Positions 26,188 through 52,920 of a stretch of 64,000 nt of DNA are shown here, piece by piece; the stretch's first letter is position 1; every line of letters begins with the position of its first letter. Under the pieces are notes generated by a model. The model searched no databases, was not told the origin of the DNA, and saw only the letters and a list, made by a program, of their open reading frames with translations. Both the position numbers and the translations under genes were made by a program. Location: NCBI RefSeq assembly GCF_963576615.1, contig NC_088714.1:26222558-26286557 (forward strand). Direction: 5' to 3'. This stretch comes from Watersipora subatra. Its lineage: Eukaryota > Bryozoa > Gymnolaemata > Cheilostomatida > Watersiporidae.

Positions 26188-27790
26188 GGATCTGAAACAT
26201 GTTTCAGCGTGTATCGATAGCATTTTTTTAGACTGCATATGCACCCTCCTACACACCAGTCTGAAGGAAGGTAAAGTCCCTAACGACTGGAGAACAGCTG
26301 TTATTAAGCCAATATACAAATGTGGAAAACGTACTGACAAAAACAATTACAGACCTATTAGCCTAACTTCCATTTTAGCAAAATCTGTGGAGCACATCAT
26401 ATGGTCGCGTATGTGGCAACATATTAATAACCATGAGATACTTAAAACCAATCAGCATGGCTTTCGTAAAGATTTAAACACTACTACCCAATTACTCCAT
26501 GTTGTTCACCAAGCTGCTGAAGCCTATGACCTAAACAAACACCATCATTTGATTAGCTTTGATTTTAGCAAAGCATTTGATAAAGTTTCCCACAATCTAT
26601 TGTTATTCAAACTCCGCCAATATAATTTTGACAATAAATGCGTTGACTGCAACGAAGACTGGCTCCTGGGTCGCAGCTCTGTGGTGTCTGTGAATGGGAT
26701 TACTTCCTCTAGTTTCCCTGTCAAATCTGGAGTGCCACAGGGCTCGGTCCTTGGTCCCCTTTTCTTCTCGTTATACATTAACGACATGACAAACCAAATT
26801 ACTAACTCCGATGCTAGGCTCTATGCAGATGATACGGTGTTATGCTCTTCCCACCCCGACCCTCAGGTTTTACAGGCGGATGTAAACCAGTTGCATGACT
26901 GGGCAAGTCAATGGGGGATGAAATTCAACCCGTTGAAATGCTGTCACATTCAATTTGGAAAGGACACCCCAGATATAATTTTCGAACTAGGTAGTGAGAA
27001 GATTCTGGTCTCCAACTCGGTCAAGTATCTCGGGATCCATATAGACTCAAAATTGAAGTGGAACACCCATATTAGCAAAGTCATTGCCAAGGCGAATCGA
27101 ACACTAGGTATCCTAAAAAGAAACTTAACTGGTGCCCCAAAAAAGACAAAGCTTATAGCTTTTAATACCATGGTCAAACCAATCCTTGAATATGCAACCC
27201 AAGTATGGTCTCCATATGCAGTGGGACTATCAAATAACATTGAAAAGGTCCAAAACAATGGTCTGAGATGGATCTTCTGGCTCCGTAAAAGAGCTAATAT
27301 AACAGAATGCCGCAACAAAAATGAAATTCTTTCTCTGAGTGACAGGCAAGATAGTCTGGATACCCTATTCCTCAGAAAAATTGAAGCGGGTCTCTATAAC
27401 ATACAACTAAATGAATACATTAAATTTGCACCTGTGACACATGACACTAGAAGTAAGATATTAAGCCACCAACACCGAACAAATGTGTGGCGATTTAGCT
27501 TTTACAATCGCATTAAAAACCAAGATAAAGTATATTTTCCGCCCACAGACAATCAGACTGATAATACTCACTGATATGCACAAATACTCATATATATCAT
27601 TTATATCACCTTTGGCCTTAGACAATCGGACTGATGATACATAAATACTCATATATATAGTTTTTACCACTTTATTACCCTCATTTTATGCAAACAACTA
27701 TACTATGATTCACTTTACTCAAAGCTCAGTTAATACACGGTGATGCAGGTTAATATACCCTATATGCCTTGAACTGGCGCTTAGGATTAA
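26188..27790 (+). mobile_element. 5'-truncated LINE with intact reverse-transcriptase frame
   Basis: An open frame runs without stops from about 26188 to the TGA at 27574 (about 460 codons). It covers the whole reverse-transcriptase domain: VPNDWRTAVIKPIYK, NYRPISLTS, then SFDFSKAFDKVSH, GVPQGSVLGPLFFSLYIND, the catalytic RLYADDTVL box and KYLGIHIDSKLKW, followed by the usual C-terminal region (ILEYATQVWSP). The endonuclease domain and ORF1 are missing, as in 5'-truncated target-primed insertions. The motif set fits CR1/Jockey-like non-LTR elements (inference). After the stop, a short 3' tail contains two copies of an ACAATCNGACTGAT...ACTCATATATAT unit. It is intergenic, between HMG20 and CLPTM1. 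The intact frame implies recent insertion. Confidence 0.92.
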
Positions 27791-29366: not shown

Positions 29367-32300
29367 GTTATTGACAATAATTTCATTTTAAAAATAGAAA
29401 TATTTTTCAAATTAGGCCATACAACAATAGTAATAAAGGGCAACAGTTAGCCATTAAAATCGAATAAATAGTTTGAGATTAGTGTTTAATCAACATGAAC
29501 AGCATGTACCATTCTAACTTTTGAATGAAAGTGTTTTGTTTATTTCTGTGCACTGCGTTTATTTATGTGTACCGTGTTTATTTTTATGTAATTCAAATTT
29601 AACCGACTACAGTGTCTACCACAGATCTATACTGATTGCAAGTCTTGTTGGCCATGTGAGTTTTGTAGTATTTTTTCCTCGTATCGATTTGCATTTTCCT
29701 TCTGGTATGGCTTCATACATACTGATAGCTGAAGTTTTGAGCGTGACGCCATGAAAAATGGGCATGTGTAATAGGTATGTGCCCAATTTATTCTTTAGTA
29801 CAGCCAGTTAGATAGTGTAGTGTGTTCAATAAATGCCTGTTTGCAGAACTCAAGATTTTTACTTTAAATCCAGCGCACAGCAGATTTTTATTCCTAAAAC
29901 TTCATTTCTATAACTGGACACGCAGAAAAGGCAGACAAGCTCTGAGATTTACGTATATTTAAATATTGAAAAACAGTATGTAAAGTGCATTTGAGGTTTT
30001 AATGTTTATTAAACCGATTTTTAATAGTTTTTTTAACCAATAAAAGCAGCAGTTGTTTCTCCGAAAGTCATTAATGAATGTTACAGTGCAGAAACTACAT
30101 ACCCGAGTCAAGCAAAATGTTGGTGGTTTGTATAGCTTTTTTCTAATAATTACTTATGCTATCATTGGATTTATGTTAATTATTGGTATCTCGCCATGGA
30201 CTAAAAGTTGTTAATCAATGTATCTCAAATGCAGTGGTGCAATGGAATCCATATACGCGATCAGTTACTAGCGTAATGCATTGCTTTACACCAAGCTTTA
30301 ATATTATTACACGAATATGATTTACATTACATTAATTTAACATTTTTAGTAGGATAATAATATATGGGTAGTAGGCTAATGTTTACCGCTGCATCACTGC
30401 TGACTCTATCAATCATAGTATAACCAAATATAAATACGAAATATAAAATGTGTTAGTTATAAGGATAACTGTGCAGTAGTTGTAACATATTAAACCATTT
30501 CTGATATAATGTAATGGTATATTGAGCACTGCGCTCATAATGACTTTCATTAAGCTGGGACAAGTTGACTAGTTTGTGGCGAGTTGACTAGTTTGTGGCG
30601 AGTTGACTAGTTTGTGGCGAGTTGACTAATCTGTGACGAGTTGACTAGTCTGTGACGAGTTGACTAGTCTGTGACGAGTTGACTAGTCTGTGGCGAGTTG
30701 ACTAGTCTGTGGCGAGTTGACTAGTCTGTGGCGAGTTGACTAGTCTGTGGCGAGTTGACTAGTCTGTGGCGAGTTGACTAGTCTGTGGCGAGTTGACTAG
30801 TCTGTGGCGAGTTGACTAGTCTGTGGCGAGTTGACTAGTCTGTGGCGAGTGGATTGGGGTCACTGGAATGAGTTATCTTACAGGCAATTCGCTCTAGGCA
30901 ACAGCACTGGTTATCTTTTCAATCGATACTCAAATAATCGAATAAAAAATTTAATCAAATACTTTTCCTGTATTCATGATATCGTTATCGTTTTATTGTT
31001 CTCTATGACAGTTTTAAGATTTGCCAAAATAAAAATTTAAATTTGAAAAATATCAATAGGCTTGCTTTGCTCATCAGCTGAATTATTGTTTTGGTGCGTT
31101 TTTGTAGGATATAAAAATATGGGTAGTCATCGGTTCAGAGCTAGTAATAGTAGGCTTTATATTGCATAGAAGCCACGACACATTTACAGCACATAGATTA
31201 TTTTTTGCCTGTCTCTCATTGCTTTTCTTCTCCAGAATGAAAATGGGGCTGCGGGTGAAGCAGCCCCTCAACAGGGCACTTGGCAGATGATTAAAGGCTT
31301 TGCAGTCAGGTTACTCATTATGTACATGGTGATGAACTTCTTCAGACAGAAATCAGCTCCAGCTACTACTGGTAGTGACGAAAATGGTAATACACCAGCT
31401 GCACCCGCTCACCCTTCACTTAATCTTTATTCTGAAACTAGCAAATTTGTAAGTACACACCTTTGTTTCTATTCAGACCAAGAGGCTCTATATTATGACA
31501 CTAAGTACATAAATCATAGGCCTATTGGTTATAAACATGACTGATGCTATCCAGTTATTAGCTGCTAGTTGGGCAAGACGGACAAAGGAAGTACAAGATA
31601 TAGATGTCCTTTAAGGCTGGTTCATACTGCATCGCCGTATCTCGGCATTGATGCTGGTGATAATAATGTTCACACTATAATAAACACGTTGTTGTTGTTG
31701 TTTGCTTCTGTTTTCACTTTTCTTTTTAATTTTTCCTGAAGGATTATTGTTCTTGCCACATGCGTGAATCAAATACTAGTCCCGCAGCGATTATCACAAA
31801 CGGAAATATAGATGAAAGCTATCGGCGACAGCAAATCAACATCATCAAAATCATTGTCACCGAAGTGGGCACATTGTACAGGCTGTTGTCGATGCTCGAC
31901 GAACTATCGGGAAAGTCTGACAGCTGCAAACATTTCCGACGTATCCACATTTCTTCATCAATGCTATCGGTTCACATTTCACAAAGTCGACAATGAAGGG
32001 CGAAAAGACAACTCCGACATATGACGATATAGTGTAAACCAGTGTTTAGGCTCACCTTATTGTTCAGAATTTGTGTTTATGGATATCCGCTCAAGTTCTA
32101 TTTGCTTTCTGTACATAGCACTGCAAGCTGATTCAGCACTCTTTAGAATGTTGTTATAAACAAGTAGGAGACTGTCTCTAGTAATCAGGCACATTTGGAA
32201 TTATTGGACTATCCCCTATGGCCTATGCACTTGCGTCGTTGCTCACCAGAAAATCATTTCACTAGCATAGTTAAGACTTTGCCTTGGGATCACCTTCACA

Positions 32301-35300
32301 TATGAATTTTTGGACACGAAATTATATGATTTAAGCAAATTTTTTTTTCAACATACAAAGTAATTCTCATTACATATGTGACATCCAATATTCTCTACAC
32401 ATCAGTTTTGTAGGAAAAAAAGTAGAGAACTGATCTAAAATAAAAACAAAATGTCATAATAATAAAATCACACAAATTAAGTTGATGCAAACTAAATATA
32501 GAGTGAGTTATGCTGTGGATTTCTATCAATCAGCTTACTGTTGAATCCATAGAGTTATCTCTCCCCACATTGATAACAACACTTGTGTTGTTATCACTCG
32601 TGAACATATAGGCCTACATTGTCTAGCCTATAATTTTATTCACGTGTTCCTAAAGTAAAGTAATAATACAACAATTTTTACTGATTGCTCCTTTGTTATA
32701 GTGTTTAAATATATGTTTAAATTTTATTTAAATTTAGTAAAGTTTAAATATAATCTAAACTTTACTAAATTTAAATAAAATTTAGGCTTTCACATAAATT
32801 GTTGGATATAGTTTTATATAAAGTATTTTTTTAATCCTGCATTCAAGTACTTGAAGTATTTATCATTGCATTCGCGCTCCGAAACGAATTAAGCAAACTG
32901 TAATATATTCTTGTAAAAATGTTTGTTCCAACATACAAAAGTTTTGTTTTTTCAAGCATGTCAACCTTGTATGCAGGGTTTATGTTCATGATCCTCAGCC
33001 GTTGCAGGCCTAGTTTGTCTAGGATCTCCAATATGTTATTTGCTATCATAGGATCTGCACTTCTATATATCAGAAAATATGGAGGAACCTGATTTCACAG
33101 ATGCTAGCTCGCTGGTAGGAAAACGTTTAGATGTGGAATATGGTGACTGGAATTCTGGGCCTACATTTGACAGTACATACACAATAGCAACATCATTTAA
33201 GGCTAGCCAGGTAAGTAATGACTGCTGATGACCATTTATGACCGCAGTACCATATTTTCAGGTGTAGTGCATCATTTTACTTTTATTACGCATTACAGGC
33301 CCTCCTTTCCAATGGTTCGATCTACCTGCATGCCTACCTGCTGCCACAGGGATGGTCTCCTGATAAGCAAAATGGCAAGCAAACTTCCTGGAAGATTGTC
33401 CACAAAGTTAAACGTTCGTACTTCTCGCGCCAAAGTTGCATTTTTGTTTATTTGTACACGCTGACCATTTGATGGTTTGATTTATTGTTCATTGTTCATA
33501 TTCTTCTTCATATTCTTCTAGAGCTGAATAAACATAAGAAGAGGAAGTTTATAAATACTGTCAATTTGCTGACGGGGAAGACGGACATTCACCCAGATCT
33601 TGTGCAGAAGGAGAATAGCAGCGTGGAGGAGATTCTCTCTCACTGGCATCCCAACCTCACTATCAATTATATAATTGATCAGACACCTTGGACTAGGGGT
33701 GGTGTGCCAGCACCCCTTGACCAATGTAATTATACATAGTAGTTGATCTGACACTCTAGATTCGGGGGGGGGTGTACCAGTACCCCTGACCAATGTGATT
33801 ATATTATTTATAAGACGCCATGGACAGGGGGTGTGTAACAGGATCTCTAGACCAATGTAATTATATAGTGGACCAGACACGTAGATCAATACAACGGGGT
33901 ACTAGCACACATGTACTAAAGCTTCATCAATGTAATTATAATGTGTTTGTTGCTGGGTCTGTTGACCATGTCTCTTCACTCGAACTGAAAGAAGTTTGTA
34001 GATTAGCAAAGAGATTACAAAGTTCGGACAATTCGCATGTTTTCGAGCAGTTCTGAAAGCGCCATACAAAATTGAGTTAGTGCATGTTTGTTGCCATGTG
34101 TCTTAAATATACTGAACACCCATCTACATTCCAGTAAATTTACGAGGATAGTTATGTTTACAAAAACAAAGTCATTCACTATAGAAGAGCTGTAGGCAGC
34201 TAATTCTATTATCGCATTTGCAGCAAGTACATCAGTTTTGAATCTATAAAGACTTCCACCGAAGGACTTTTGGTTTGTGGTGCCCAAGCTCTATATGATA
34301 GACACTCTCTCTCTCATCTCGGGCTGTAGTATCGTGTTTTGAATGTTTCGTCTTCTTGTTCACAGACATAGAGTTTGTACCAGGCCAAGACAAGTACTAC
34401 CCTCCTCTATACTTCAATGACTACTGGAACCTTCAAAGCGATTATATGCCCATCAATGATACAACTCCGTGAGTTTCAATACAGTGCTTTGCCTCCTCTT
34501 CTACTCTGTTTGATCAATTGTCCTTTTCGCTGAATGCTGTCTCTCTGCTACAGCGTGCTCAACTTCACGCTCACCATATACCCACTTTCCATGATGAAGT
34601 GGCAGTTCTACGCTGCTCAGGGAATGAGGAACCAGTGGTACAACCAGCTGCTCGGTGATGGAGGAGCAGATCAGTCAGATGCGGAGCAGGATGCCCTTAA
34701 GCAGACGCTACTGGATACAAACCCTTATCTCCTCGCTCTTACTGTCTCTGTCTCTCTTGTGCACAGCGTCTTTGAGTTCCTCGCATTTAAAAATGGTAAC
34801 AATCTAGTGGTGGAAACATGTTCTCATTTAATTTAATACCTTCAAGTGAATAACTTGAATTGAATGGTACAATATTCAGTGTTCCTTGATATCTTTCTAT
34901 ATATATTTCTCTAAAATATGTAATCCGATATAGGTAGGCGTACAGACTTATGTGAAGGTGAATGATTATGAAGGTGTAAAATGTAATATCAATATAATTA
35001 TTTTTGCTGTTGCAATGGATAGGAATTGAAGGAACATTTAAGAAAAGTAGTTTATTTCAGCATTGTCATAGGAGCACTGTGGTCTTACCCAGCTCAGTGT
35101 TATTGCAGGGCAGTCTCAGGAGATTCAGCAGACGTTAACCATTTGCTAAGAAACAAGATTTAATTTTCGTGTAAAATTAAATTTGCTCTTTTTTGTTTAA
35201 TGGGATAACTATTGTATGTAGATATACAATTCTGGAGAAACCGAAAATCTCTAGAAGGACTTTCTGTCAGATCCATATTCTTCGGAGTATTCCAGAGTCT

Positions 35301-38300
35301 CATTGTTCTTCTCTATATCCTGGACAATGAGACAAACATTGTAGTTATTATTAGTGTTGGCGTTGGATTACTCATCGATGCTTGGAAAATAACTCAAGTT
35401 ATCAACTTCAAGGTATGTTCTTCTCTAGTCCCTAATTGATGCCCTACACTGTAGTACACTATAAACCCACTCGATTATACCATGTTATCTGGTGATACAT
35501 GGTAGAATTGAGTGGGTTTGAATTCGGTTCATGTGGTGATGACATGGTAGAATTGAGTAAGTTTGAATTCGTGTCATCTGGTGATGACATGGTAGAATTT
35601 AGTGGGTTTGAATTCGGTTCATTTGGTGATGACAAGAATGAATTGATTGGGTTTGAATTCATGTCTCTGGTGATGACGTGGTAGAATTGAGTGGGTTTGA
35701 ATTCGGTTCATTTGATGATGACATGATAGAATTGAGTAGGTTTGAATTCGTGTTATCTGGTGATGACATGGTAGAATTTAGTGGGTTTGAATTCGTCCCA
35801 TCTGGTGATGGCATGGTAGAATTGAGTAGGTTTGAATTAGTGTTATCTGGTGATGACATGGTAGAATTTAGTGGGTTTGAATTTGTGTTATCTGGTGATG
35901 AAAAGAATGAATTGAGTGGGTTTGAATTCGTGCTATCTGGTGATGAAATGGTAAAATTGAGTGGGTTTGAATTCATGTCATCTGGTGATGACGTGGTAGA
36001 ATTGAGTGGGTTTGAATTTGTGTTATCTGGTGATGACATGATAGAATTAACCTTATCATCAGTCCTTCAGAGAAAGTAGATGTTGTCTATTTATTTACAA
36101 GTGACTTGCTCAATCATATTGGTAGGAAGTTGGTTTGCTTTGGTCATCTCAATCAATTTTCATATCTGTGGCTTCTATTAAAATGGCTATTCAAATTACA
36201 AGTGTAAACCACGCAGTTTATTTTAATTTGTTTTGTGAGCAGTAGGGCTCCAAAAGCTTTAGTTGGGTTGAGCACAAACTTTTGAATCTTCCAAGTTCCT
36301 GATAGAACTAAGGTTCCTTTCCTTGTAGAGATATGTAGGGCTTGTGTGCACTTGGTGTATTATGGCAATCGAAGACAGTTTGTCATATTCACTATGTCGT
36401 CACAGCTTCATCATTCAAAACTGCTTGTTAACATATTACAGATAGATTATGAGAACAAGTGGTTTGATGCTATTCCAAGGATAACTTACACAGACAAATC
36501 AACATATGTAGAATCCAAGACAAAGGCATATGACCAGGTGACAGTTGGGCTTGTATATATCTTATTTATATATAATCCCCCATATATGAATGAGACATTT
36601 CATATGGCTGCTCGTAAAGCCCGGTTCACATTGTATCGCCATATGTCGGAGTCGTCCTTTCGGCGATTATTCGTCGACTATGTGCACTGTAAACCGATGA
36701 CATCGTTGAGGCAAGGCAGATATGGCAGGAAAGATTGCAGCTGCCAAACTTTTCTGCTGGTTTGCGGAACATCCATGCCAGTCTAGCATCACTTCGGTGA
36801 TGGTGATTGGCTGATGCTGATTGTTTGATATATATTTTTTATCATGTCAGTTGCTGATGGACTTGCATTTTGTCCTTTCTGCGAGCGCATTATATATTGA
36901 GAATGGCTTTGTCGCTGATTATCCGCTGATAAAAACGCTGATATATTTGCGATAGTGTGAACATTGTAATTATCACAGATGATCATCAGAGTATTGTGGG
37001 ATTAACGCGGACATACGAAGATAAATAGTGTGAACCAGCCTTTAGTTGGATTCGTTCATTAACAATAATTATGAGGCATTTGTAAAAGACTGCATCTATT
37101 AAGGCATGTATATATAATTTATATGAGCCTATTTTTGTATTTAAATAACATTAAATAATAGGAAAACAATGTTTGGTAAAATAAGTTGTTCAAGATGGAG
37201 AAAGAATAGTTCTAGAAAGGCTACATGAAGCACGAAAAGGAACAATTAGCATGTTCAGCAAACACTAGGCTCTGAGCATTTTTAGTCTTTTAAACCCCAG
37301 CACGATCTTCTCTTTGAGTCTAGTGTAGGTTTTTCTGGAGAACCTGTTTTGTGTAATCGTTTCAATAACTTCTTTGAGTCTTGCACACCTTTGTCTGTTG
37401 GTGCTGCCTTTATAGTAATGACATATTGAAGATTTTCTCTCTGCATAGAGCAGCAAACCAACTTAAAAGTGTCAGGATGTTGGCCCATTCTCTTGGCACT
37501 AGCATAGGTATTAGTTGCAAAAAAGATACACTATAGGGAGTAGGTTGAACTTATAGCGGTTTTATGCCAATCTTGCCATCTATGGACAGCCCTGTTCAGA
37601 TCTTCAAATAGTTTAAGTAGGGAAGTGTTTGTGTTTAATAGTGTGTATAAATTATAAGTATAAAAATGTTGGTATCGCGTTTCTTGGGATGGCACAATAT
37701 TCCTTTGTATTTCTTAGGAATCCTAGAGGGTTATAAAATAAATATGTTAAATCTTTTCATTGCCTGTCCTTTATCACTGAAAATGAAGAAAAGTAAAGTG
37801 TTTGGTACTTTTCACATTTTCCTGGCAGTACCAACAGAAGATCTTTAAGACCTCTATTTGACTGCCATGCCACTCTATTTTTCAACCCTTCCCCTATAGT
37901 GGCATTTTATTAGAGGTGGTGTTCAAATACAAGGTGCCGCTGTATTTTTCGGTCAACTCGTAAGAATTTAGGGGAGATGAATATATCCCCTACACTGGCC
38001 AGGCGATGCTAATGTCACCTATATTTTGCACTCTCCTTTGGGCGGATTCACATTAATGGTGTCGGCCTCAGCATTTTTGCTAAACCGTATCAGACCGAGC
38101 TAAGCAAAGAACTAATTTGATTATAAAATATTAATATTGTTTGATGAGCCAGTAATTACGATTGGTCTGTGATTTTAGATGGCATTTAAATATTTGAGTT
38201 GGGTTTTGTTCCCACTGCTCGCAGGCTACGGAGTCTATTCGCTCTTGTATCACGAACACAAAGGCTGGTACTCCTGGGTACTCAGCATGCTCTACGGCTT

Positions 38301-39726: not shown

Positions 39727-40678
39727 ATTCGGTATTGTATTTGTCGAGACATTGTGCAGTTAACTCCGCATTTTCTAATCCTTTTTTGACAGAGAATTGT
39801 TATTTGATTCGCTTTTCAACTTAACTCTTACTAGTCTTAATACACATTTTGATTATATTGTTTATCAAATTGTAGAGAATGTACTGTTATCAACGCCACA
39901 CATGGAAATTGTAAGGTATTTTATGTTACATATGTTAAGGGTATTAACATATTTCTAGAAATGCTACACAATATATGCGTGCTGTACTTGAGAAGAATCT
40001 GGTAGCAAACACAGCAAGCATTGTTTACAGATTTTTTTCAATGACAAATATATGAGATTTGCTTGCTTGAAAGGGAGCGATTTACGACTTCAGCAAGGGC
40101 TAGTGAAGTACATTTCCACAGCTCAGTAAGCAAAATCTAAGGCACCAATGCACTTGTGCCGAGGCCTAAGAGGACCAACCACTCATACTATCAATTGATT
40201 AAATGTGCATTGAAGAGTATTTTGCCTTGGCAAATCATCGTCAATCGAGCAAATAATTTATAACATCGCATCAGAACTTGGTCACTGGAATACAAACTGT
40301 CTTGTAACCTAATCGGAGCTGTGTAAGGTCATGATGCATGGCCAGCCTCTGTGTAGACTTCTGTGATTGACCGCAAGAGACAAGTTGACAAACTAAATAT
40401 ATTCTTATGTGAGAACACTTGGAAGTAGCAAAAACTAGACAATGATAACACTGGGATATATATCTTTAAATTAAAGCAGCAGATGCACAGAATTTATAAA
40501 AAAATATAAAATGAATGTTTGTCAGCAGTAATGTTGGATGCGTACAGCAGGCTGTATGCGACACCTACAAGTGAAGATCTAAGGTCAGGATTCTATTTGA
40601 GAATGTTTTGATACAAACCAACTTTGTTATTGGCTGCTGGATGAGTAAACAAATTTGTGGAAGTTATGAGAAGACCGA
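39727..40678. other. 3' intergenic space between CLPTM1 and the LRR gene
   Basis: 952 bp between two convergent stop codons. No canonical AATAAA for CLPTM1 is seen; ATTAAA at 40198-40203 is a weak candidate. No canonical signal was found on the minus strand for the LRR gene. Nothing else is recognised. Confidence 0.5.
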
Positions 40679-43600
40679 TCACATTAAACGGCAGCGTGAC
40701 CTCCTGTGACGTGTCTCCCTGCCAGACTGGCAGGTTGAACACATGTAGGAGTCTGTTGGAGAATGACATCTAGAGCAGGTGTTAGTGCTTGTCTGCTCAG
40801 GTATTGTATCTGGTTGTCGGCTATAGAGACGTACATGGGAGTTGTATGCCTTTTCTTGCTGCCGTGCCATTCTGATCTGTTGCAGTCGTGCTGGTATCTA
40901 AATGTGAAATGAATCACATAAATTGAGTTTGGTGTTCAATGCGTCAAAAATTGACTGCAGCACAACGTAGAACGGGTTGTATAACACTACTAACCTCAAT
41001 AGCAAGGGCACAGTCCTTACTACAAGTCCAGTGTTGAAATGGAACACACGTGTTGCCAATAAATGGATTTTGGAAAGTGAACACAAAATAACCTAAAAAA
41101 CAACAACAGTAAAGCTATACAAATATATTTGCATATTAGAATTGTAGATTGAAACGACAAATTTTTCAGTACATCCACCAAGGTTGTACAGCCCAGACTC
41201 TGAGAAGTCAGTAAATTTTTATATACGTTTTACTTAAGACAAATGTCCTACTGATTTCTTTTCACAGCCAAACACTCAAGATAACTCAATGAATACAACA
41301 GCTAAATACATGTACTAAAACATATGCGCTATAAAACTACAAAAAATATTGAAAAAAGACTCAATTAAATATAATAACTTAACTAGTATGGTAATTAATT
41401 AAGTAAATGATATATTTATTGTTAATACACATATAGAACATAGACATAAACATAGTATAATTGGCAGCCCTATGTTCACGAAGAGGCGGTAGCACAGATA
41501 TGCAGAGTGACTTACTTTAAGGATGGGGGGAAATAAAATTCAAATAAATTAGCTTACACAATTTTTTCTGTTCACTGTTCAATTTATACCTCTTGTTCTA
41601 CATAGAATGGCAAAACTGTGATGCTTCAAAAAACTTCACACGTCTTTGAAGTTTGAGTCAAGAGTATGAATCGGGATCAAAGTTTCGAAAAGTCAGCTAT
41701 TAATTCAATCATAAGTTTGGGTGTAAAACAGGTGCAGTATTAAATGGGTTACTACTTGCACTACGCCACGCGGATATGACAGATCATATAGTGTGTAACA
41801 ATACATAGCCTATTATGACTATGTGTGGTTACACACAATACATGTAACAATACATACAGTATTTCAGCTATGTGTGGTTACAGTTACACGCAGACAGGTT
41901 ATCAGACAAGTTATCAGACTGTGTAACTTGTCTGATAACTTGTACATATCAGACAAACTAATACAAGGCTAAGTAAATATGAACAAACCCTGCGAATGGA
42001 GCAGACTCGCTGTGTGGCATGCAGCGCAGATGTTGAACATGAAGTAGACATCCGACACATAATCCTTGACCCTCTCTGATAAACCTTTCTGCTCAAAGTA
42101 GTTGCCTTTGCTGCTTATAATGCTGCGCGCAGACCAGAACATGAGGGACTGGACTTGCGTAGCACAAGTCAGTGCGACCGATGCCACATCAATATCTGTC
42201 GGCGTGCAAGAGATTCTTTGTGAATTACTTACAGAGGGTATTGAAGTACATTAAAAAAGTACAGTGGGACCTCTACTTACGAAAGTAATTCAATCCAGAA
42301 TCAAATTCTTTAGTAGAAAACTTCAGAAGTAAAACCTCGTTTTGCCATATAAATGCCCTAATCCATTCCAAACCTCCACAAAATTCAGATATAACATTCG
42401 GTTATAACATAACATAACTGTTAACATAACATAATGTTATAACATAACTCTAAATACATGTAACAGTTAAAACAAATACATGGTAAAATTATATAACTAC
42501 ATAAAAAACAGAAAGAGAACACACCATACGGAAACAAAAAACAAAGAAATAACAGATAATAATGAAAATAAAAGGGAATAATGGTTTGCTTGTTTATCTT
42601 TGGTGTTGACCAGCTGGTTGAGACTAAGATAAGAACACCGAGAGTGGGAAGTCGGCTTTCAGAAAAGGTGTATTGTTGTCTTGGTTTTGTTTTGCTCACA
42701 ATATATGTTTTTAAAACGTAAGTACCGTAGAAAGATTTATTTACATCAGCCCGAACTGAAAAACTGTCACCATACCAAAAACACAGAACTTGGATTGCTA
42801 CATTAAAATAGAAAGTTGTCCTACTCTGTACGTGATATATGGTAACTCCAAACTATATAACAAACGAAAAGAAAACACTTGCCATTTACTGACTCGCTAG
42901 CAAAAAACTGAATGAGACGCGTTCTAAGTCATACCCATAGGAAGCAAAGGGACAAAACAAACAAGCAAAAGCTCACAAGACCTTTTGTATCAAGAAATAT
43001 CTTTCGCAAGTCGAAGCAAAACTTTTAACAAAAGACATTTCGGTCTTTTGGTAAAATACATGTAATTGTCCCAAACTCAGCCTTTTGACCGTTCAAGGGG
43101 AAAAAAGCTAAATTTAACTGTTTAATCTAATGACTGTACAGTAATTGTATTATTATTCGTTTGTATCAACGGCTTTTCTCTTTTTTCTCATCGCTTTTAC
43201 TTGGTTTAGGGTTCATGATTATGGTAATTTCACATTAAGTTAACAGTAGCGTACACCTTCGATGTCAATTGAAATCAATGTTTTCTCTTTTTCTCTGGAC
43301 AGCAAGGTCTAAGCTGCAAATAAAATATAAAAATACATCTTTATTAAGGCCGGTTCACACTATATCGCCGTATCTCGGCGTTTCCCTTTCGGCGTTCATC
43401 GTCGATTATGTGAACCGTGAATTGATGGCATCGACGAAGCATCGCGGACACGTCGGGAAAGTTTGTAGCTGTCAAACTTTCCCGATAGTTCGCGGAGCAT
43501 CGACGACAGCACGTGTAATGGGAACCATTTCGGCGAAGACAATTCGCAATCGCGGATAGCGTGGTTTCTGTTTATGATAATTGCTGCAGGACTATATTAC

Positions 43601-46600
43601 ACTCGTTGGACTAGCAGGGACCAGAGACACACGACAACATTTTTATACTGACTCGTTTTGTTTATGATAAATTTATGAAAATATTCTTGTAAGGCCTATG
43701 TATATTTACTCACCGAAAAAAAACATTTCACAGTTCTCATTGCGCAATGTATAACAGAGTGCGTTAAATTGTCCTTGATTTCTTCTCTTCTAGGCTGGAC
43801 GCACCTACCATCTTCTTTTATGCCTCTTTCAGGTGTAAAGCTCTGCTGCTGCTGTTGTCTAAGTCGGTTGCTTCGTCTGAGCAATGCTAAGACAATTACT
43901 TTTCTTAGTTTTAATTTTCTATCCATCTTCAACAAAAGCGATCACTCGATGCGCGTGGTACTAGCTTTTGCTACTAAACCGAAACGCGAATGTTTACGCG
44001 CGTCTCAATGGTCTGTTATTAATTAGGCCACGCCCATCGGTGACGCTCCAGTGACCGCGTTATATATGAGAACGTAATCTCGACGACTGTTCCCTGATAC
44101 AAACGCGGATGGCTTTGTGCTAGTGTGAACATTGTCATCATCGACAATCACCGAAGTATTATTGCATCAACGCCGAGATACGGCGACATAGTGTGAACCA
44201 GCCCTTATAATCGTAGTGGTGTCTGTCGGTCCATCTGTTCGACGGCAGGATTAGAGCTTATGAAAAACAATAATTTTAACGAGACTCCAAATCATAAGAC
44301 AGCTTGGGAGACCAACACTAACACTTGTACCAATTGGCAGCCTTAAGGTATTTCTGAATAATTGTGCAGATAGTTATTTTGCGTGTTTTTCCAGCACATC
44401 TGACAATCTCTTACGGCAATCGAGACTGTCAGGAAACTAGTACAGTTCCCTTAACTAGTGCTAGGGAACTAGTTAAAGGACTGCACTAGTTCCCTAGCAC
44501 TCGTACGCTATACATTGTTTTCCCTTGGAAGTGCCCCAAAAGAGAAAACGTTATTTTCAAGGCTAACTGTGGGACTCTCGTTACTCGAATCGAATTTGAG
44601 GATTCGCCCTACCATGACAAATAACATTATATGGAATTTATTACGTAATACAAAGCAAAAAACTTTGCATAAACTCTTCAAATTATCTGGGATTTACGTA
44701 AAAGGAGGTTTACGTTGTAGAAGCATCTACTGTATCTCCTTTCTGCATATAACATTCAAATTTGCCAATTTAACTCGAAGAGAGCATGCTAAACATTTAC
44801 TTCATGCGGCTTCTGTTAGATTATACTATTATACAAAAGAAATAACGCATAATTATGCTATAAATTAACAGCGTAATCAATAATATTTACAAACCTGAAA
44901 AAGATGCAGTTCTGATTCGTTCACGACTTTCACAGCCATACCACATGAAAGTGGAACGGAAATAATTTTGGTTGCCATGACGATGGAGGCTCTTAAGGTT
45001 CTTCAGTTCTAGCACAAAACCAGGAACTGCATCTGGTGCAAAAGAACATAGAAATATTGAGATAAACAGGAACTGTCTCTGGTGTATAAGAACATTGAGA
45101 TATGATTATAAACAGGAACTGTACCTGGTGTACAAGAACATTGAGATATGATTATAAACAGGAACTGTACCTGGTGTACAAGAACATTGATACATGATCA
45201 TAAACAGGAACTGCATCTGGTGTACAAGAACATTGAGATATGATTATAAACAGGAACTGTACCTGGTGTACAAGAACATTGAGATATGATTATAAACAGG
45301 AACTGTACCTGGTGTACAAGAACATTGAGATATGATTATAAACAGGAACTGTACCTGGTGTACAAGAACATTGATACATGATCATAAACAGGAACTGCAT
45401 CTGGTGTACAAGAACATTGAGATATGATTATAAACAGGAACTGTATCTGGTGTACAAGAACATTGAGATATGATCATAAACAGGAACTGCATCTGGTGTA
45501 CAAGAACATTGAGATATGATTATAAACAGGAACTGTATCTGGTGTACAAGAACATTGATACACGATTATAAACAGGAACTGCACCTGGTGTACAAGAATA
45601 TTGAGAATCTATTATAAAATGATCATATGAAATCTAATGGCCCTCTGGTAGTACACCCCTCATGTCAAACCATTTGCTTTTGAAACGAGCACTTGAATAC
45701 AGTAAAAACCATTTACTTGTACAGGTGTGGAGCATGGTGTAAAATTATAAATTTAAAGCACAACTGTCAGTATATAGTTAATAATATAATACGTGATACT
45801 TGTACACAACATACCGGTAGTTGAAGTGGCACAGGAGGCACAACTCCCACTTATCATACTGGTAACTTATGACTCATTGGCAGTTGCCTCAGCCTTCCCT
45901 ACCATGTTTTCAACTATAGAGAAAGGCAATGATACGCACCAACTAGTGTTTGTTTGCAGTCCATTTTGAAAAGACTAAGCGTAAACCAGAATGACAACAG
46001 ATTTCAAATTAGTTTAATGTTCATTCGGCTCAGCTGCAGACAAGCAAACTAACCAGCAGGGGATTCTGACTGGTGTTTGTATTCCAGTCTGACATAAGAA
46101 ATCGACCTAAATTTATTCAAGGAGGCTGTTAAAAAGATGATTTGTTTGAACTCTGAAATGATTGTCATAAAACTAATAGTGTAAACAATTATAGTCAAAA
46201 ACCGAAAACGCCTTTTGTAAGCGTGTTTACATTATTTTACATTAAAAAGCAGGTAAAATATAAAGTGCAATGTATTTCTCCTAAAACTCTATTTATAGAT
46301 AAGGCTAAGCCGAGAAATATGCTAGTGCTTTGGTTTCGTTTCGCTAGATCTTCGTGTAAAATAAAAGTTGGCGAAAAAGCTTTTTTACGTGTGCCTGCTT
46401 TCATTGAGGGCATGTGTGGAGTAAGGGTAAACATACATACTATGCAAGATTCAGTCAATTTTTGGCAAACCACACTGAATACGCCTGCATATAATGATTC
46501 AATACTAAAGATAAAAGGAGACGGAGTGTTTGAAATGAGACCACTCAGTATATCAATGCATATTATTGGTTTTATAGCAGTATATGTGGTTTTATTTAAA

Positions 46601-49600
46601 CTTGTGATTAAACAATATAGTTACATACTGAAACACTTCTACTAATGCAGTTTTAAAATTCATTAAAAGTGTAGCACAATACTTTTGAGTCTTTACTGTC
46701 AGTATTTGGTGTGCCCACCATTATTGGCAAGAAAGGAGACAGAGTGTCAGATTTGTCAGTTTTCGTAGTCCTTCTCAAAAATATTGAGGGTTAAGTTTTT
46801 GTTCAGCATCTTAAATATGAACTTGCACAACATTTTAGTAGATTTTATCAGAAAGTGGCAGTATTTCTCTATCATTTGTGATTGCTTTTGATGTTTGAGG
46901 TGATCTGACTGCCAAGATGCTTCAAGATTCAAATCAACAAAACTTGATTGTGATTAAAACGCCCAAAAAAATATGAGCAAAATTCCGTCACTAGATGCTA
47001 TAGTTGATATTGGATACTGCGTTTAAATTGCAGCATTATGAGTCTCTATTCTGTCGATTTCTTTGTAACTATAAATGTTATAATCGCACTTTTGCTTGAG
47101 CTGAGCATTTTAACCGTGATCAAGTTCTGTCGATTTTAATCTTGAAACACGCTAACAGTCAGATCACCTCAAACATAAAAAAACACATGCGATTGATAGA
47201 AAAATACGGATGCTTTCTGATAAAATCTGCCACAGTTTAATGCAAGTTCATATTCAGCAAAAGGAAGTCTTGATTTGACTCCTTAAACTCCAATTGGTTC
47301 AGTTGATTCGAGATGTTCAGAAACGACAGTGAGGTTGTATGATGCTTAAATATATGTATACCTGTACAGTAGCACAAGTGTAGCCTACCTTAGATAGCAC
47401 AATTCAATATTATGTATCATGTTATAAGAAAAATTACCATTATTCATGAATACTGAGAAAACAAGTGGGAGTTGTATCTCTTGTAACACTTCAAGTAATA
47501 AAATCGCGCTTGATGCAATGTTGGTGACACGTATGACTATTTGATATGATACTATAAATATATATATAACAGTACATCAGCAGTTTTGTACCAAAGTTAT
47601 AACTCTGTACCATTCTATACATCTGTGTAGATAAATGCATCTCACGATATACACGCCAGCATGCTAAAAAATTCAATTAACTATAAACATTTTGCACCAG
47701 TGTTACGTAGTATACCTGTCCAGGTACATACATATGAGGTGTACTCATTTATATGCAGTATTATGTAGTAAAATCAACTACCGAAATACAAGTACAGTAA
47801 TACTTCCTACTTTGCGGCTTCCAATATGGCAAGTTAATATAGATTGTGCCAATTCATGTTTCCTCCTTTTGATTAACTGTATTTTGCGGACTAAATGTCG
47901 CGATCTTTTTCATAGTTTGGCCGAAGGTGCGCCATATACTTCGGAAGAGATAATAATAATAATAACTTAGGTTTAAAGTGATTTACTTGTTTTAAAATAA
48001 ATAAATTAAAGAGTGAGCACAGTGAACAAGATACTTTATCGTCACCGTGTGACTTCAGGAAGTTCTCACCAGCAACGGAAGCCTTCCTTTGGACACGTTT
48101 AGTGACACACTGTAAGTCTCTTTGCTAAGGCAAAAATCTGAAGCCCACAGTCTATTGATATGAAAGTCACCGGTGACAAGCCGGTTAACGCCAGCAATGA
48201 AAATATAATCTCTTCCACGGATAGCTAGAGAAAGCTTTTCAATTATTTTATCATCCCTCCTCTTTCATCTAGAAGCGTTTTTCATCATTTTCCAACAAAA
48301 TTGATTGGCTCAGGAATATTTTGCATTAACTATGCCCATTTGATTCATGCCCCAGTTCTCACTAACCTGTATATAAAACTTACTGTACAAGTTCATGTAC
48401 TTACAAGTACAGTAATTGCAAAAGTTTAGAAAACAACTTAAAGATGAACTTTCACAAAACTTTAGGATATTTTACCAGAAAATAATGGTATTTTTCTATT
48501 ATTTGTGATTGTTTTCTATGTTTGAGGTGATCTAATTGCTTCAAAAAATCTAGTTTTCAGTTCAAAAATATTCCCATCCCACGGACATGTAACCCTCATG
48601 CAGGCCTGTATTCCCTGGTTGCAAGTTGGGGCGGCAAATGTTAGGCAACTAGTTATGAACACCTGGGGATTGAGGAGCGGTGTAAGCTCCCCAACAGGGT
48701 TCGGGGCAGCGCCTCGAAGCTTTGTACGTTTTAAGCATCAACAACTCTCAAAGTACCGTACTTTTCGGACTATTAGCTGCGACCTTTTTCTGATGTTTTG
48801 AGCCATGCAGCTTATGTAAAGGTGCGGCTATTCTGTGGCTTTTTCTTTCACCGCTAGGTGACATCAACCGGAATCTCCGGCTAGTGCGCCTCTAGCCGTG
48901 AAAGAAAAAACGAAACATTGCCTAACGGTGCTGTTCCGTTACGCACTGGGTTAAAAAGCGTCAGTTAATACGGAACAGTGCCTGACGGCACTGTTCCATT
49001 TTAACTAGCAAAGTTGCTGTCGTGTTAAAAATCACCTTTCTGAGTTCTGCAGCCTGTACAAAGGTGCAGCCTATGTAATGTTTTGTTATCGTTCTTTGAA
49101 AATAAAGCAAATGCGGCTTATATAAGGGTGCGGTTAATAGTCCGAAAAGTATGGTTTGCATAAATGCAATCAATTGTAAGCATCAAAATCTACATAAATA
49201 TATTGTTTATGGTTCATGGAAAGCCAAATCTTTTCTTTATTCAGCGAACAATAATAAAATTACAATATAAAACTCATGAGACTACAGATTTCTGTAAGAG
49301 ACATTGACAGAACAAGAGCTAATACTTTTTTATTGCAAAAGCTCTTGTTCTGTCAAAGTGTTCATGGCAGAAATCTTTCACAACTGATTCTGTATCTATT
49401 TCAACATCTTTATATATGTGTAATATTAGAAGATTATTTAGACGAGCCTGCCCATTGTACTCCTCATCGATGTTTGATTCGGTTATGTTATGGAAAATGC
49501 AAGTTAAGGGGTCTTCTTCAAACCCCCACTATAAGCAATAAAGTTCAGTTTCCAAGTCTTAACAAAGTCTCACAAGATCACTCATTTGGCAAGACCACCA

Positions 49601-52600
49601 CGGAGACAATATAGAACGCTAGTTGCTAGTTGCTTTCTCAGCCGGCCAGCCACCACAGGGAATACGGGCCTGCCTTCGTGAAGTAGAAGGGATTACCGTA
49701 TTCAGCGTATGACATTATTTGGGTACAAATATACAAACACGCATCTGTAAAAATAGAAGGAGAGCACATACACTCCATTTTTGGTTTCGATATGTGACAT
49801 ATATAGCCACTATTAAAATAACTAGAGCTGCACAATGATCGCGTTAATTAAACGATTAACGCCGACCAATACAAATAAACGATTAACTGAGTTGGGCCAA
49901 TTAATCTTCAATTAAAATGCAACCAAGGTGATGATCTTGATGTGGTTCCTTTCCTTTGTACTGTTTAGTACCATACGTTAGTAATACCAACGTAGCGGGT
50001 TACAACCATTTAATTTACTAGCAAATAAATATTATGACAAGCAACACTTTCTTACCAATAAATTAAACCACAATTATTTTGCACTCGACTATGTAAACAC
50101 AGTGAGTCGCTAACATTAAACTTGTTTATACAACACATTGCACAAGCGCCGTGCCGATCTAGCCGTAAGCAGCCATGTCGTTAGTTGTTTGAACATGTTT
50201 CTAGGTAATAGCACAAAAGTGATTTCAGTATTATTTAATATCTTAGTTTGTTTTGGTTTATTTTTAACAACTTTCTTAAGTAAATTATACATGTATTATC
50301 ATTTTTCAAAAAAATCACAATCATATTTCAGCTTCAGAATATTAGTAATATAAGATTGACACTTTATTGGAACATGAATGCAGAAAAATGTCTTCCGCCC
50401 TAGGTAGCGCATTTCTGTAAGTTGTTGGAAGCGTAAACAAGAAAGCGAAGTGCAGTATATGCTAAAAAGAATTTGCTTACCACCACAGCACATCACCATT
50501 AAGATATCATTTAACTAATTCTCATCCTACCGCTCATAATTCATTACCAGCTGTCGCAGACAATAACTAATACTACTGACTACCGGCACTCCTGTCCCCT
50601 GTGAGCGGCTATTCTCTAAAGCTGGCAATATTGTATGTAGGAAGAGGGTATCTCTTTATTCAGATAATGTGAATAAACTGTGCTGCCTCAACTCTTGGCT
50701 GACTTAATTATAGACTTTCATAGACAGTTTTCAAACTCATAATAATTATTACATTGTAACTTATATACATTGTACATAACATGTACTACTGCTAACAATT
50801 GTTTAAAATATAATTATTCTATATGTAGCTGTCTTATTTGTTTTTGAATATGCAGGTTTTTACTAGATTAATTCTAAGATTAATCAAAGATTAACTGGTT
50901 CAGACCAGTTATTAATCGCGATCAATTTTTATAATCGTTGTGCAGCTCTAAAAATAACATATGTGAAATTTATACGAACATGAGGAACCAAAATCACGCT
51001 ATGTGGTATGCCGCAAGCAGTTGACTATAAATAATTCTATACCTTGAAATGAGAATGGCTACGATAAGGCCTCCTACGATATTGTTATACAAGATTGCAA
51101 TGAAGTTTATTTACCTAAATTATTGTAGTCAAGGTGCAGTGTTGTCAGCTCTGTGCAGTAGCTCAACGTATAAGGAATGGAATCATTCTTTAGCCCATTT
51201 CTTGACAGCTCCAAAACACGAAGCTTTGTCAGTCGGCCCACATCGGCGGGTAAGGATCTTAGGTGATTCTCACACAGCGACAGGCGTTCCAGATTGCTCA
51301 CCGTGAATATCTATTAAAATGAAATTGTTATTTCTTTTTCAATCACACTCCTAATCTGAGTGTAGGAGAACTCATAACATACAAAAGACATATAAATCGA
51401 TAACAATATATAAGCATATTAAGATTTTTGTGATCTAAATTTTTAGTTCAATTATGAGTTTGATGTAATGAGGTTGTGGGAGTTGTCATCCACTTTTTAT
51501 CACCATTCGACATGCGAATAAAAATTCCAAACTCGACAGATTTATTATCAGAATGATGGCAAAACATTTTCATATAAACTATAAAGACTTTAGCTTCCAA
51601 GGCCGATAAGAATAATTGAATTCTGACACTCTATAACAAACTTTGCCTGAGCCAAATTAAAACATTTTTATCATTGTTCTTACCACAACAAACTGAAGAA
51701 AAAGCAATAAAAATGTGAAACAAAATGGGGGTAATGTAATGGAATCCCACAAAAAAACATGCTCACACATTTGGGAAGCTGTGAAACTCGGCCATTGAAT
51801 GTCGCATCCAATACCAGCTCAGTTAGAGCTTCTGTCTTGACAAAGCGATGAAACATCCTATAATCTGTAACACAAACAATATCTTACCAAACTTGGCTTA
51901 ACACGCAATAAACAATATTATAAATTTACAGAACATCACTAATGATGATACATGAAAAACTTCAATTTACCACAATTTGTTAACATGTGACTTAGTTTAA
52001 CAAATTATCAAGTTCTACTTTATGTTTAGGGCTTTCCCCAAATATTAATTCCTACCACGAAAAAAAGGCGACCCTTTGAGAGCAACATTGTCATAAAGAG
52101 AGCATCGCTGATGTTGTGAATCAGCTAGAAGAACATCATAGAACCGAGATTTCTCATGCTTGTAGAAGTTATAAATAGGAATGAAGTACTGTGGATCGAA
52201 TGACGGCAAGCCATTTTGTCTCTGCTCCTTTACCCCTTCAACTACTTTGGCCAATCTGTCAAAGTGACCTTGAGTAGAATTATACAATAGCTGAGCATGT
52301 TGTCCGCGGCTGGTTTCTCTCTAAAACAAGAACTTTATAGCATTTTAGGTTTCAATTACATTCATTACTTTTCTACGTTTCAAAAGCGAACAATCACAAA
52401 CAGTAGTCATGGGCATTATCCTTACTTGATCAGTTTGTGAGAAATCTGCAAATGCTTTTATCACAGCATCCCAATTTTCACGAGTGCTCGCACATGATTC
52501 GATAGCTACATAAAAAGCAAGCTCGTATGTTAGAGGCAATCGTCTTAATATCATTGGTTTGCTGTCTCGTATACTATGCGATTCAATAGAAGAGGAATCA

Positions 52601-52920
52601 CAGTGTTCTTCCTTATTAGTGTGTTGCTTCCGCAATGAGTGATTTTTGCTGGTGAGCCGTCGAAACTTCAGACCTGCGCTAGGAGAACGAGATTTTGATG
52701 TCATGGTTTCATTACCGCGAGATGGGTTTGGTGAACCATCAACTCTGTGATACTGACTACTCGTCCTAAGATCTCTATGAAAAACAGAATTTTCTCTAAT
52801 TCTGCCAGAATCTCGTCTCCTAACAGTGCTTTGTTGAAGTAGTTCATCGTTCACCAATTGGTGTTCATGAATGGGCTCATTACGACTGGTGAGTGTACGC
52901 TCTTCATGTGATTCCATCAT
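40679..52920 (-). CDS. Leucine-rich-repeat protein with Cys-rich C-terminus
   Basis: Eight coding exons, 5' to 3': 52920-52426, 52320-52056, 51864-51767, 51310-51115, 45032-44895, 42195-41989, 41092-40995 and 40897-40679 (TGA), giving 571 residues. All phases close. Residues 1-130 are a polar, Ser/Arg-rich, probably disordered head. About 130-260 is a helical region without a recognised motif. About 265-375 has around four LRRs (LERLSLCENHLRSLPADVG, LRVLELSRNGL, LTTLHLDYNNLDAVPG). The rest has cysteine pairs: CAACH at 454-458, C482, C490 and C494, then CSRC...CSTC at 540-555. This spacing resembles zinc-binding knuckles, and an LRR followed by a Cys pair recalls LRRC28/LRRC58-type proteins, but I cannot name the orthologue. 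The exon 5 acceptor lies at the edge of a 46-bp splice-site array. The gene is head-to-head with legumain. It could be a cytosolic LRR adaptor; its function is unknown. Confidence 0.85.
41899..41938. repeat. Perfect 15-bp-arm inverted repeat
   Basis: TTATCAGACAAGTTA and its exact reverse complement flank a 10-nt loop. It lies in intron 6 of the LRR gene, about 50 bp from exon 6. Confidence 0.9.
43347..44204. mobile_element. Harbinger-like MITE, copy 3 (best ends), 858 bp
   Basis: The left end has GGCCGGTTCACACTATATCG, then CCGTATCTCGGCG. The right end in reverse has GGGCTGGTTCACACTATGTC, then GCCGTATCTCGGCG. TTA flanks both sides (43344-43346, 44205-44207). GGCNGGTTCACAC ends and a 3-bp TTA target are typical of PIF/Harbinger elements. 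No transposase is seen. Confidence 0.85.
44457..44501. repeat. Perfect 17-bp-arm inverted repeat
   Basis: AGTGCTAGGGAACTAGT and its exact reverse complement flank TAAAGGACTGC. Neighbouring sequence (44433-44456) carries further partial ACTAGT/GTTCCC copies. Confidence 0.9.
45021..45610 (-). repeat. 46-bp array built from the LRR-gene 3' splice site, about 13 units
   Basis: Unit 1 overlaps exon 5 of the LRR gene and its acceptor (on the minus strand ...TGCACCAG, then exon ATGCAGTTCCTGG). About twelve further 46-bp units follow in the intron. Read on the minus strand they give CTCAATGTTCTTGTACACCAG-like runs followed by ATGCAGTTCCTG or GTACAGTTCCTG, then TTTATAATCATATCT. Variants alternate in a higher-order pattern (GTACC/GCATC and GAGATA/GATACA). 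Confidence 0.93.
46812..47256. mobile_element. Foldback element, about 445 bp
   Basis: Left and right halves are reverse complements over at least 100 bp with mismatches: TATGAACTTGCA, GATTTTATCAGAAAG and TGTTTGAGGTGATCTGACTG occur in both arms. The centre is a short unpaired region. A partial arm of the same family lies at 48438-48545. Confidence 0.8.
48438..48545. repeat. Single arm of the foldback family
   Basis: Matches the left arm of 46812-47256 (ATGAACTTTCACAAAACTTT, TTTTTCTATTATTTGTGATTG, TGTTTGAGGTGATCTAATTG). Confidence 0.7.
48756..49154. mobile_element. Terminal-inverted-repeat MITE, 399 bp
   Basis: Left end CCGTACTTTTCGGACTATTA; right end in reverse CCATACTTTTCGGACTATTA. The ends continue with GCTGCG/CCGCAC similarity and an inner GCGGCTTAT-type motif. 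The superfamily is uncertain. Confidence 0.85.
49823..50950. mobile_element. hAT-type transposon, 1128 bp, perfect 8-bp target duplication
   Basis: Ends TAGAGCTGCACAATGATCG and, in reverse, TAGAGCTGCACAACGATTA. Both sides carry the identical 8-mer AAAATAAC (49815-49822 and 50951-50958), as hAT elements produce. Sub-terminal GATTAAC/TTAATC motifs recur at both ends. No complete transposase; non-autonomous. Confidence 0.92.

Follow-up and report, generated by a model that had tools for sequence, protein, structure and literature searches.

The window, which is the whole 64,000-nucleotide stretch of DNA that was analysed, lies on contig C7 and contains an LRR gene on the minus strand and a neighbouring CLPTM1-like gene. 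The eight exons of the LRR gene join into a single open frame of 571 residues; their phases agree, and all seven introns are of the GT...AG form. Exons 4 and 5 are joined in phase in this model, which was deduced from the sequence, and the exon edges at 51115, 45032/45033 and 44895 given by the first-pass annotation are right.

52426..52920, minus strand: exon 1 as modelled, from a putative ATG at 52920
52056..52320, minus strand: exon 2 of the gene model
51767..51864, minus strand: exon 3 of the gene model
51115..51310, minus strand: exon 4, LRR repeats, donor GTAAAT
45033..51114, minus strand: intron 4 of the gene model, 6,082 bases, with a tandem array at its 3' end
44895..45032, minus strand: exon 5, 138 nt, phase 1 at both ends, donor GTTTGT
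41989..42195, minus strand: exon 6 of the gene model
40995..41092, minus strand: exon 7 of the gene model
40673..40897, minus strand: exon 8 with the limits chosen for the model; it contains the stop codon and extends a few bases beyond it

The gene, which may bear a loose likeness to LRRC58, has a product in which Pfam finds LRR families only. Because the intron 4/exon 5 junction joins G to AT, the first residues encoded by exon 5 are D-A-V-P. With these residues the LRR pattern of exon 4 carries on into exon 5, and the alignments to solved LRR proteins cross the exon 4/exon 5 junction; no solved relative was found for the C-terminal part of the protein. The search for paralogues was run against the genome (783,720,542 bases in 239 contigs) and covered exons 4 to 5 and 6 to 8. 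The protein encoded by exons 6 to 8 gave three matches, all within the LRR gene itself. That of exons 4 to 5 gave 13, two in its own gene and 11 to LRR sequences at 34-47% identity. Neither query had a close second place.

The tandem array at the end of intron 4 is a minisatellite occupying positions 45021-45618, with a period of 46, 13.0 copies, 91% matches, 0% indels and a score of 954 (Tandem Repeats Finder). On the minus strand its 13 units fall into a 46-base register, comprising the genuine acceptor and 12 intronic acceptors, the real intron 4/exon 5 boundary being the unit transcribed last.

45021..45618, minus strand: mirage-type minisatellite, 46 bp x 13; the unit consists of 34 bases of the intron 3' end and 12 bases of the start of exon 5 (Tandem Repeats Finder and register)
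45021..45066, minus strand: unit 0, which is the genuine boundary of intron 4 and exon 5, with its AG at 45034-45033 and the exon beginning at 45032; acceptor score 4.4
45067..45618, minus strand: 12 intronic copies with the acceptor-like CACCAG; the first base after the AG is at 45078 and then every 46 bases to 45584
45088..45445, minus strand: block duplicated within the array, an exact 174-base repeat at an offset of 184, which is 4 units

The hexamer CACCAG is present in 13 of 13 units and is followed by ATGCAGTTCCTG or a close variant of it. Three of the 12 intronic copies match the genuine junction, ACCAG|ATGCAGTTCCTG, exactly. An exact search of the whole genome for ACCAGATGCAGTTCCTG finds four places, all of them in the array: the real site and three of the 12 copies. 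The genic unit shares 37 of its 46 positions with the array consensus, and the best 46-mer elsewhere in the window, on either strand, reaches 28 of 46. The genic unit is therefore homologous to the array, and a chance resemblance between boundary and array can be dismissed on the same figures. The first-pass annotation had described the exon 5 acceptor and the first exon bases as one unit of a 46-bp array with about twelve further intronic units, each carrying a CACCAG acceptor-like site and several identical to the genuine junction. All of this is borne out by Tandem Repeats Finder, the register, the consensus match and the motif counts; of the span proposed there, 45021-45610, the start is correct and the end falls 8 bases short. 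When the array was used as a query against the genome it was found at this place only, in a search that scores only the best candidates and skips very common words; with no second place found within that scope, a dispersed repeat or mobile element was rejected as the nature of the array.

Several inner units of the array are identical (2=5=6, 3=7 and 4=8=10), while in the pairwise table the greatest divergence is seen at the two ends, in units 0 and 12. The 12 copies show no variation in 35 of 46 columns. The exact 174-base repeat suggests, as the usual mark of such events, a recent block duplication and thus recent growth of the array. From this internal structure we infer that the array may still be varying in length.

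Minisatellites as such are ordinary here, because the genome is rich in arrays of this kind: eight with a period of 25-100 bp and at least five copies were found in 200 kb sampled at 20 places. What stands out is the position on an exon edge. In the window, 14 of 22 Tandem Repeats Finder rows were compared with 26 exon boundaries, made up of 15 in the LRR gene, its start counted among them, and 11 CLPTM1-like acceptors; the 46-bp array touches one of the 26. A 2.1-copy, 12-bp pyrimidine-rich repeat at 33495-33519 ends three bases before the first base, 33522, of a CLPTM1-like exon. It is a pyrimidine tract in duplicate and thus resembles the 46-bp array on a very small scale. An intron of the CLPTM1-like gene contains an array of 45 bp x 12.5 (35483-36048), which makes no contact with the exon edges entered in the comparison. 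Since 45 is a multiple of 3, this array is open over much of its length, with frames of 140 and 135 residues on the two strands. The array at 12644-13237 (59 bp x 10.1), whose unit as given by Tandem Repeats Finder ends TTATTATAG, is probably very young because its copies show 99% matches; its units score low as acceptors (-1.6).

Other repeated sequences are seen in the window and beyond it. Related short repeats at about 43350-44200, at 31570-32000 and at 36600-36790, with ends like GGCCGGTTCACACTA and TATCTCGGCGTT, resemble non-autonomous mobile elements when the sequence and its translated frames are inspected by eye. An open frame of 461 residues at 26189-27574 has, likewise by eye, reverse-transcriptase-like motifs and probably belongs to a LINE-type element. 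The telomere repeat expected for most animals is of the TTAGGG type. The first 300 bases of contigs C1 and C3, the two contig ends that were read, consist of (CCCCAAA)n runs, with variants in C1, which is TTTGGGG in reverse. Lancelet telomeres are of the TTAGGG type, and the genome is therefore probably not that of a lancelet. Contig C3 also has twelve TCP-1/Cpn60 matches over 8 Mb, at about 22.6-30.7 Mb, each covering 337-366 of 490 positions. They lie in single reading frames of 391-519 residues, four of the twelve with one internal stop, and look like an intron-poor expanded family.

The strength of the acceptors was judged with a weight matrix made from 17 acceptors of the LRR gene and the CLPTM1-like gene, a small set with exon edges placed by eye and the genuine site excluded. 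The genuine site scores 4.4, the best of the 13, and the 12 copies score between 0.3 and 2.5, with 1.8 and 2.5 the commonest values. The tract of the genuine site has 12 pyrimidines in 16 positions, against 10 in 16 at each copy. The 301 other AGs of intron 4 have a median score of -6.2, and the copies rank in the top 3-8% of the AGs of this intron. When the 17 training acceptors are scored by leaving each one out in turn, they range from -3.5 to 10.2, so that a score of 2.5 lies above eight of them and 1.8 above six. By their local sequence the copies are thus plausible acceptors, within the range of real sites and not obviously too weak, which favours the first-pass annotation. One AG elsewhere in intron 4 scores 8.3, above the real site, and therefore the score alone cannot identify the site that is used.

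The same reserve applies when the array is compared with its genomic background. A score of 1.8 is reached by 22% of 3,000 random 71-base pieces when either strand is allowed, and by 11% of 5,000 on one strand (200-kb sample). In 14 control arrays, four from the window and ten from the sample (two of the latter with fewer than five copies), either strand was scored for the best acceptor-like score per unit; one (L027, 4.9) lies above the 1.8 of this array and 13 lie below it. The case for the array depends on its position at the boundary, not on its acceptor score. The layout of the sites also has to be considered. No AG occurs in the 38 bases before the genuine acceptor, and the copies are arranged alike, with the same spacing to the preceding AG. 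In first-AG scanning the upstream acceptors could win, which counts against use of the genuine site. RNA structure that might hide the copies was considered and rejected, as three stretches gave no clear excess of stability over 30 mononucleotide shuffles. The full array with exon 5 (690 nt) folds at -136.4, compared with a shuffle mean of -130.7 and a standard deviation of 5.8. Rfam at gathering thresholds gives no match in the window.

The consequences of using each acceptor were followed by joining exon 4, the retained part of the array, exon 5 and exons 6-8 in silico and translating the product for all 13 sites. The genuine acceptor gives the full frame, and every one of the 12 upstream acceptors leads to a premature stop. 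Eight of the copies shift the frame; the other four (k = 3, 6, 9 and 12) keep it, yet their translation ends within the second of the units retained. Measured from the exon 5/exon 6 junction, the stops are 101-628 nt upstream, which is far enough for nonsense-mediated decay by the usual rule. The earlier expectation that most copies would shift the frame, 46 not being a multiple of 3, was right in direction but understated the effect, since the in-frame copies are stopped as well.

Arrays of this type, minisatellite-like tandem copies of an intron-exon boundary, have a precedent in lancelets, where they are called mirages and have been described in the genes for Adh3, the globins BflGb6 and BflGb9, troponin C and PGBD5 (PMC3087553, PMC3902484). 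In BflGb6 the duplicated segment joins the 3' end of an intron to the 5' part of the exon that follows. The repeat has six units in one haplotype and three in the other, with 81-100% identity among units, and the inner units are homogenised whereas those at the edges are not (PMC3087553). The same paper states that the Adh3 data and RT-PCR suggest that regular splicing is undisturbed, although the copies could act as cryptic sites, and propose mirages as a route to new introns (PMC3087553). Section 17 of the second paper adds the mirages of PGBD5 and troponin C and reports no aberrant mRNAs, accurate splicing being unaffected (PMC3902484).

We read the array in the LRR gene as a new case of a mirage, a kind already known from lancelets. 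It is a tandem of the minisatellite type, its unit spans the authentic boundary of the gene as modelled by sequence, splice signals are kept in many copies, and the inner units are homogenised with divergent edges, all as in the lancelet arrays. Like the array of BflGb6 it lies on the acceptor side and includes the 5' part of an exon; the unit lengths of 10-72 bp in Adh3 bracket the 46 bp found here. BflGb6 differs in having six or three units of 150-160 bp, whereas the present array, described from the sequence of one assembly, has 13 units of 46 bp and resides in an LRR gene. Three further systems are related. The units of the IFI6 minisatellite (Turri et al. 1995) are splice sites, and two downstream units are said to be donors, giving rise to three mRNA species (PMC4526556). 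As in IFI6, the units of the present minisatellite are splice sites of the gene, but those of IFI6 are donors, several of them reported as used, and those of the LRR gene are candidate acceptors. Human genes of segmental duplications have variable internal tandem repeats with minisatellite expansion at exon-intron boundaries, and 27 of 80 modifications changed introns (De Grassi and Ciccarelli 2009, PMC2812944). Those boundary minisatellites resemble the present one but were found by comparing paralogues, with RNA support, whereas exons 4-5 and 6-8 of the LRR gene have no close second place. Where introns are gained through AGGT segments duplicated in tandem (PMC4974935, PMC3443670), tandem AG|GT copies likewise arise; here, in contrast, the copies lie within an existing intron, are poor donors and make no new intron.

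We consider it likely, with good confidence, that the array is a mirage which arose by duplication of the boundary, is mostly neutral and leaves splicing mainly at the genuine site. The minisatellite would have formed when the last part of intron 4, together with the initial 12 bases of exon 5, was duplicated in tandem. The exon presumably came first, its initial bases coding for the LRR residues. Additional copies would then have accumulated on the intron side, followed by the four-unit block duplication. The opposite order, in which an older intronic repeat took over the boundary and the exon 5 acceptor and first exon bases are derived from the repeat, would be compatible with the homology of array and boundary, which by itself gives no direction. 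However, the residues encoded by these bases match the LRR pattern, the bases preserve the reading frame across the eight exons, and the array query found no other place in the genome, which together make this order very unlikely. Even less credible is recursive splicing, in which six of the 12 intronic units, those with CAG|GT (k = 2, 3, 5, 6, 7 and 12), would serve as zero-length exons for stepwise removal of the intron. Half of these 12 units do join AG to GT, but as donors they are weak: CAGGTACAG scores -2.8 and CAGGTGCAG scores -2.7, compared with 0.7 to 7.4 for 16 local donors, on a matrix built from those same 16 donors of the local genes. Moreover, 48% of the 3,622 GTs on the strand score at least as well as CAGGTACAG. 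The units were accordingly rejected both as recursive (ratchet) splice sites, which combine a strong acceptor with a strong donor, and as an IFI6-type donor minisatellite.

The first-pass annotation saw in the array a ladder of acceptors with a regulatory effect: the 12 copies would compete with the real acceptor, their use would yield unproductive mRNA, and the length of the array would set the amount of functional mRNA and vary among individuals. The scores of the copies, within the range of real acceptors, are consistent with such competition, as are the premature stops well before the next junction that all of them produce, and the recent block duplication suggests that the length changes. 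Minisatellites can be linked to splicing, because CeRep25B of C. elegans is over-represented near alternatively spliced regions (PMC4039745). Against the ladder, none of the copies scores as high as the real site, and lancelet mirages with duplicated splice signals are described as not disturbing regular splicing (PMC3087553, PMC3902484). The acceptor bases also show no special conservation, most columns of the unit being invariant among the copies anyway. A regulatory role of the array is possible, the plausibility of the sites being what speaks for it, but the ladder as a whole is improbable. Its more specific form is more doubtful still, namely that the copies form a length-variable set of poison acceptors, each diverting a small share of transcripts to nonsense-mediated decay, so that the output of the LRR gene is tuned by a copy number differing among individuals or even tissues.

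In the preferred reading, that of a nearly neutral mirage, splicing most likely takes place mainly at the last acceptor, 45033|45032, whose pyrimidine tract is the best in the set of 13 and which lies directly on the 138-nt exon. The upstream copies would give exons of 184-690 nt and would rarely be used. Mistaken use of a copy would introduce a premature stop, and the transcript would be destroyed by nonsense-mediated decay, the RNA being short-lived. The array would be close to neutral and free to change its length, because transcripts derived from the copies carry a stop and should decay. The arrangement, familiar from lancelet genes, is probably harmless.

An intron with thirteen 3' splice boundaries that are nearly identical amounts to a natural experiment on how an acceptor is chosen among copies. 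Since a wrong choice at any of the 12 copies gives a recognisable premature-stop product, the error rates of splicing could be estimated from RNA with decay blocked. Seen beside the mirages described in lancelets (PMC3087553, PMC3902484), the array also suggests that mirages occur in another, probably different, animal with a genome rich in minisatellites.
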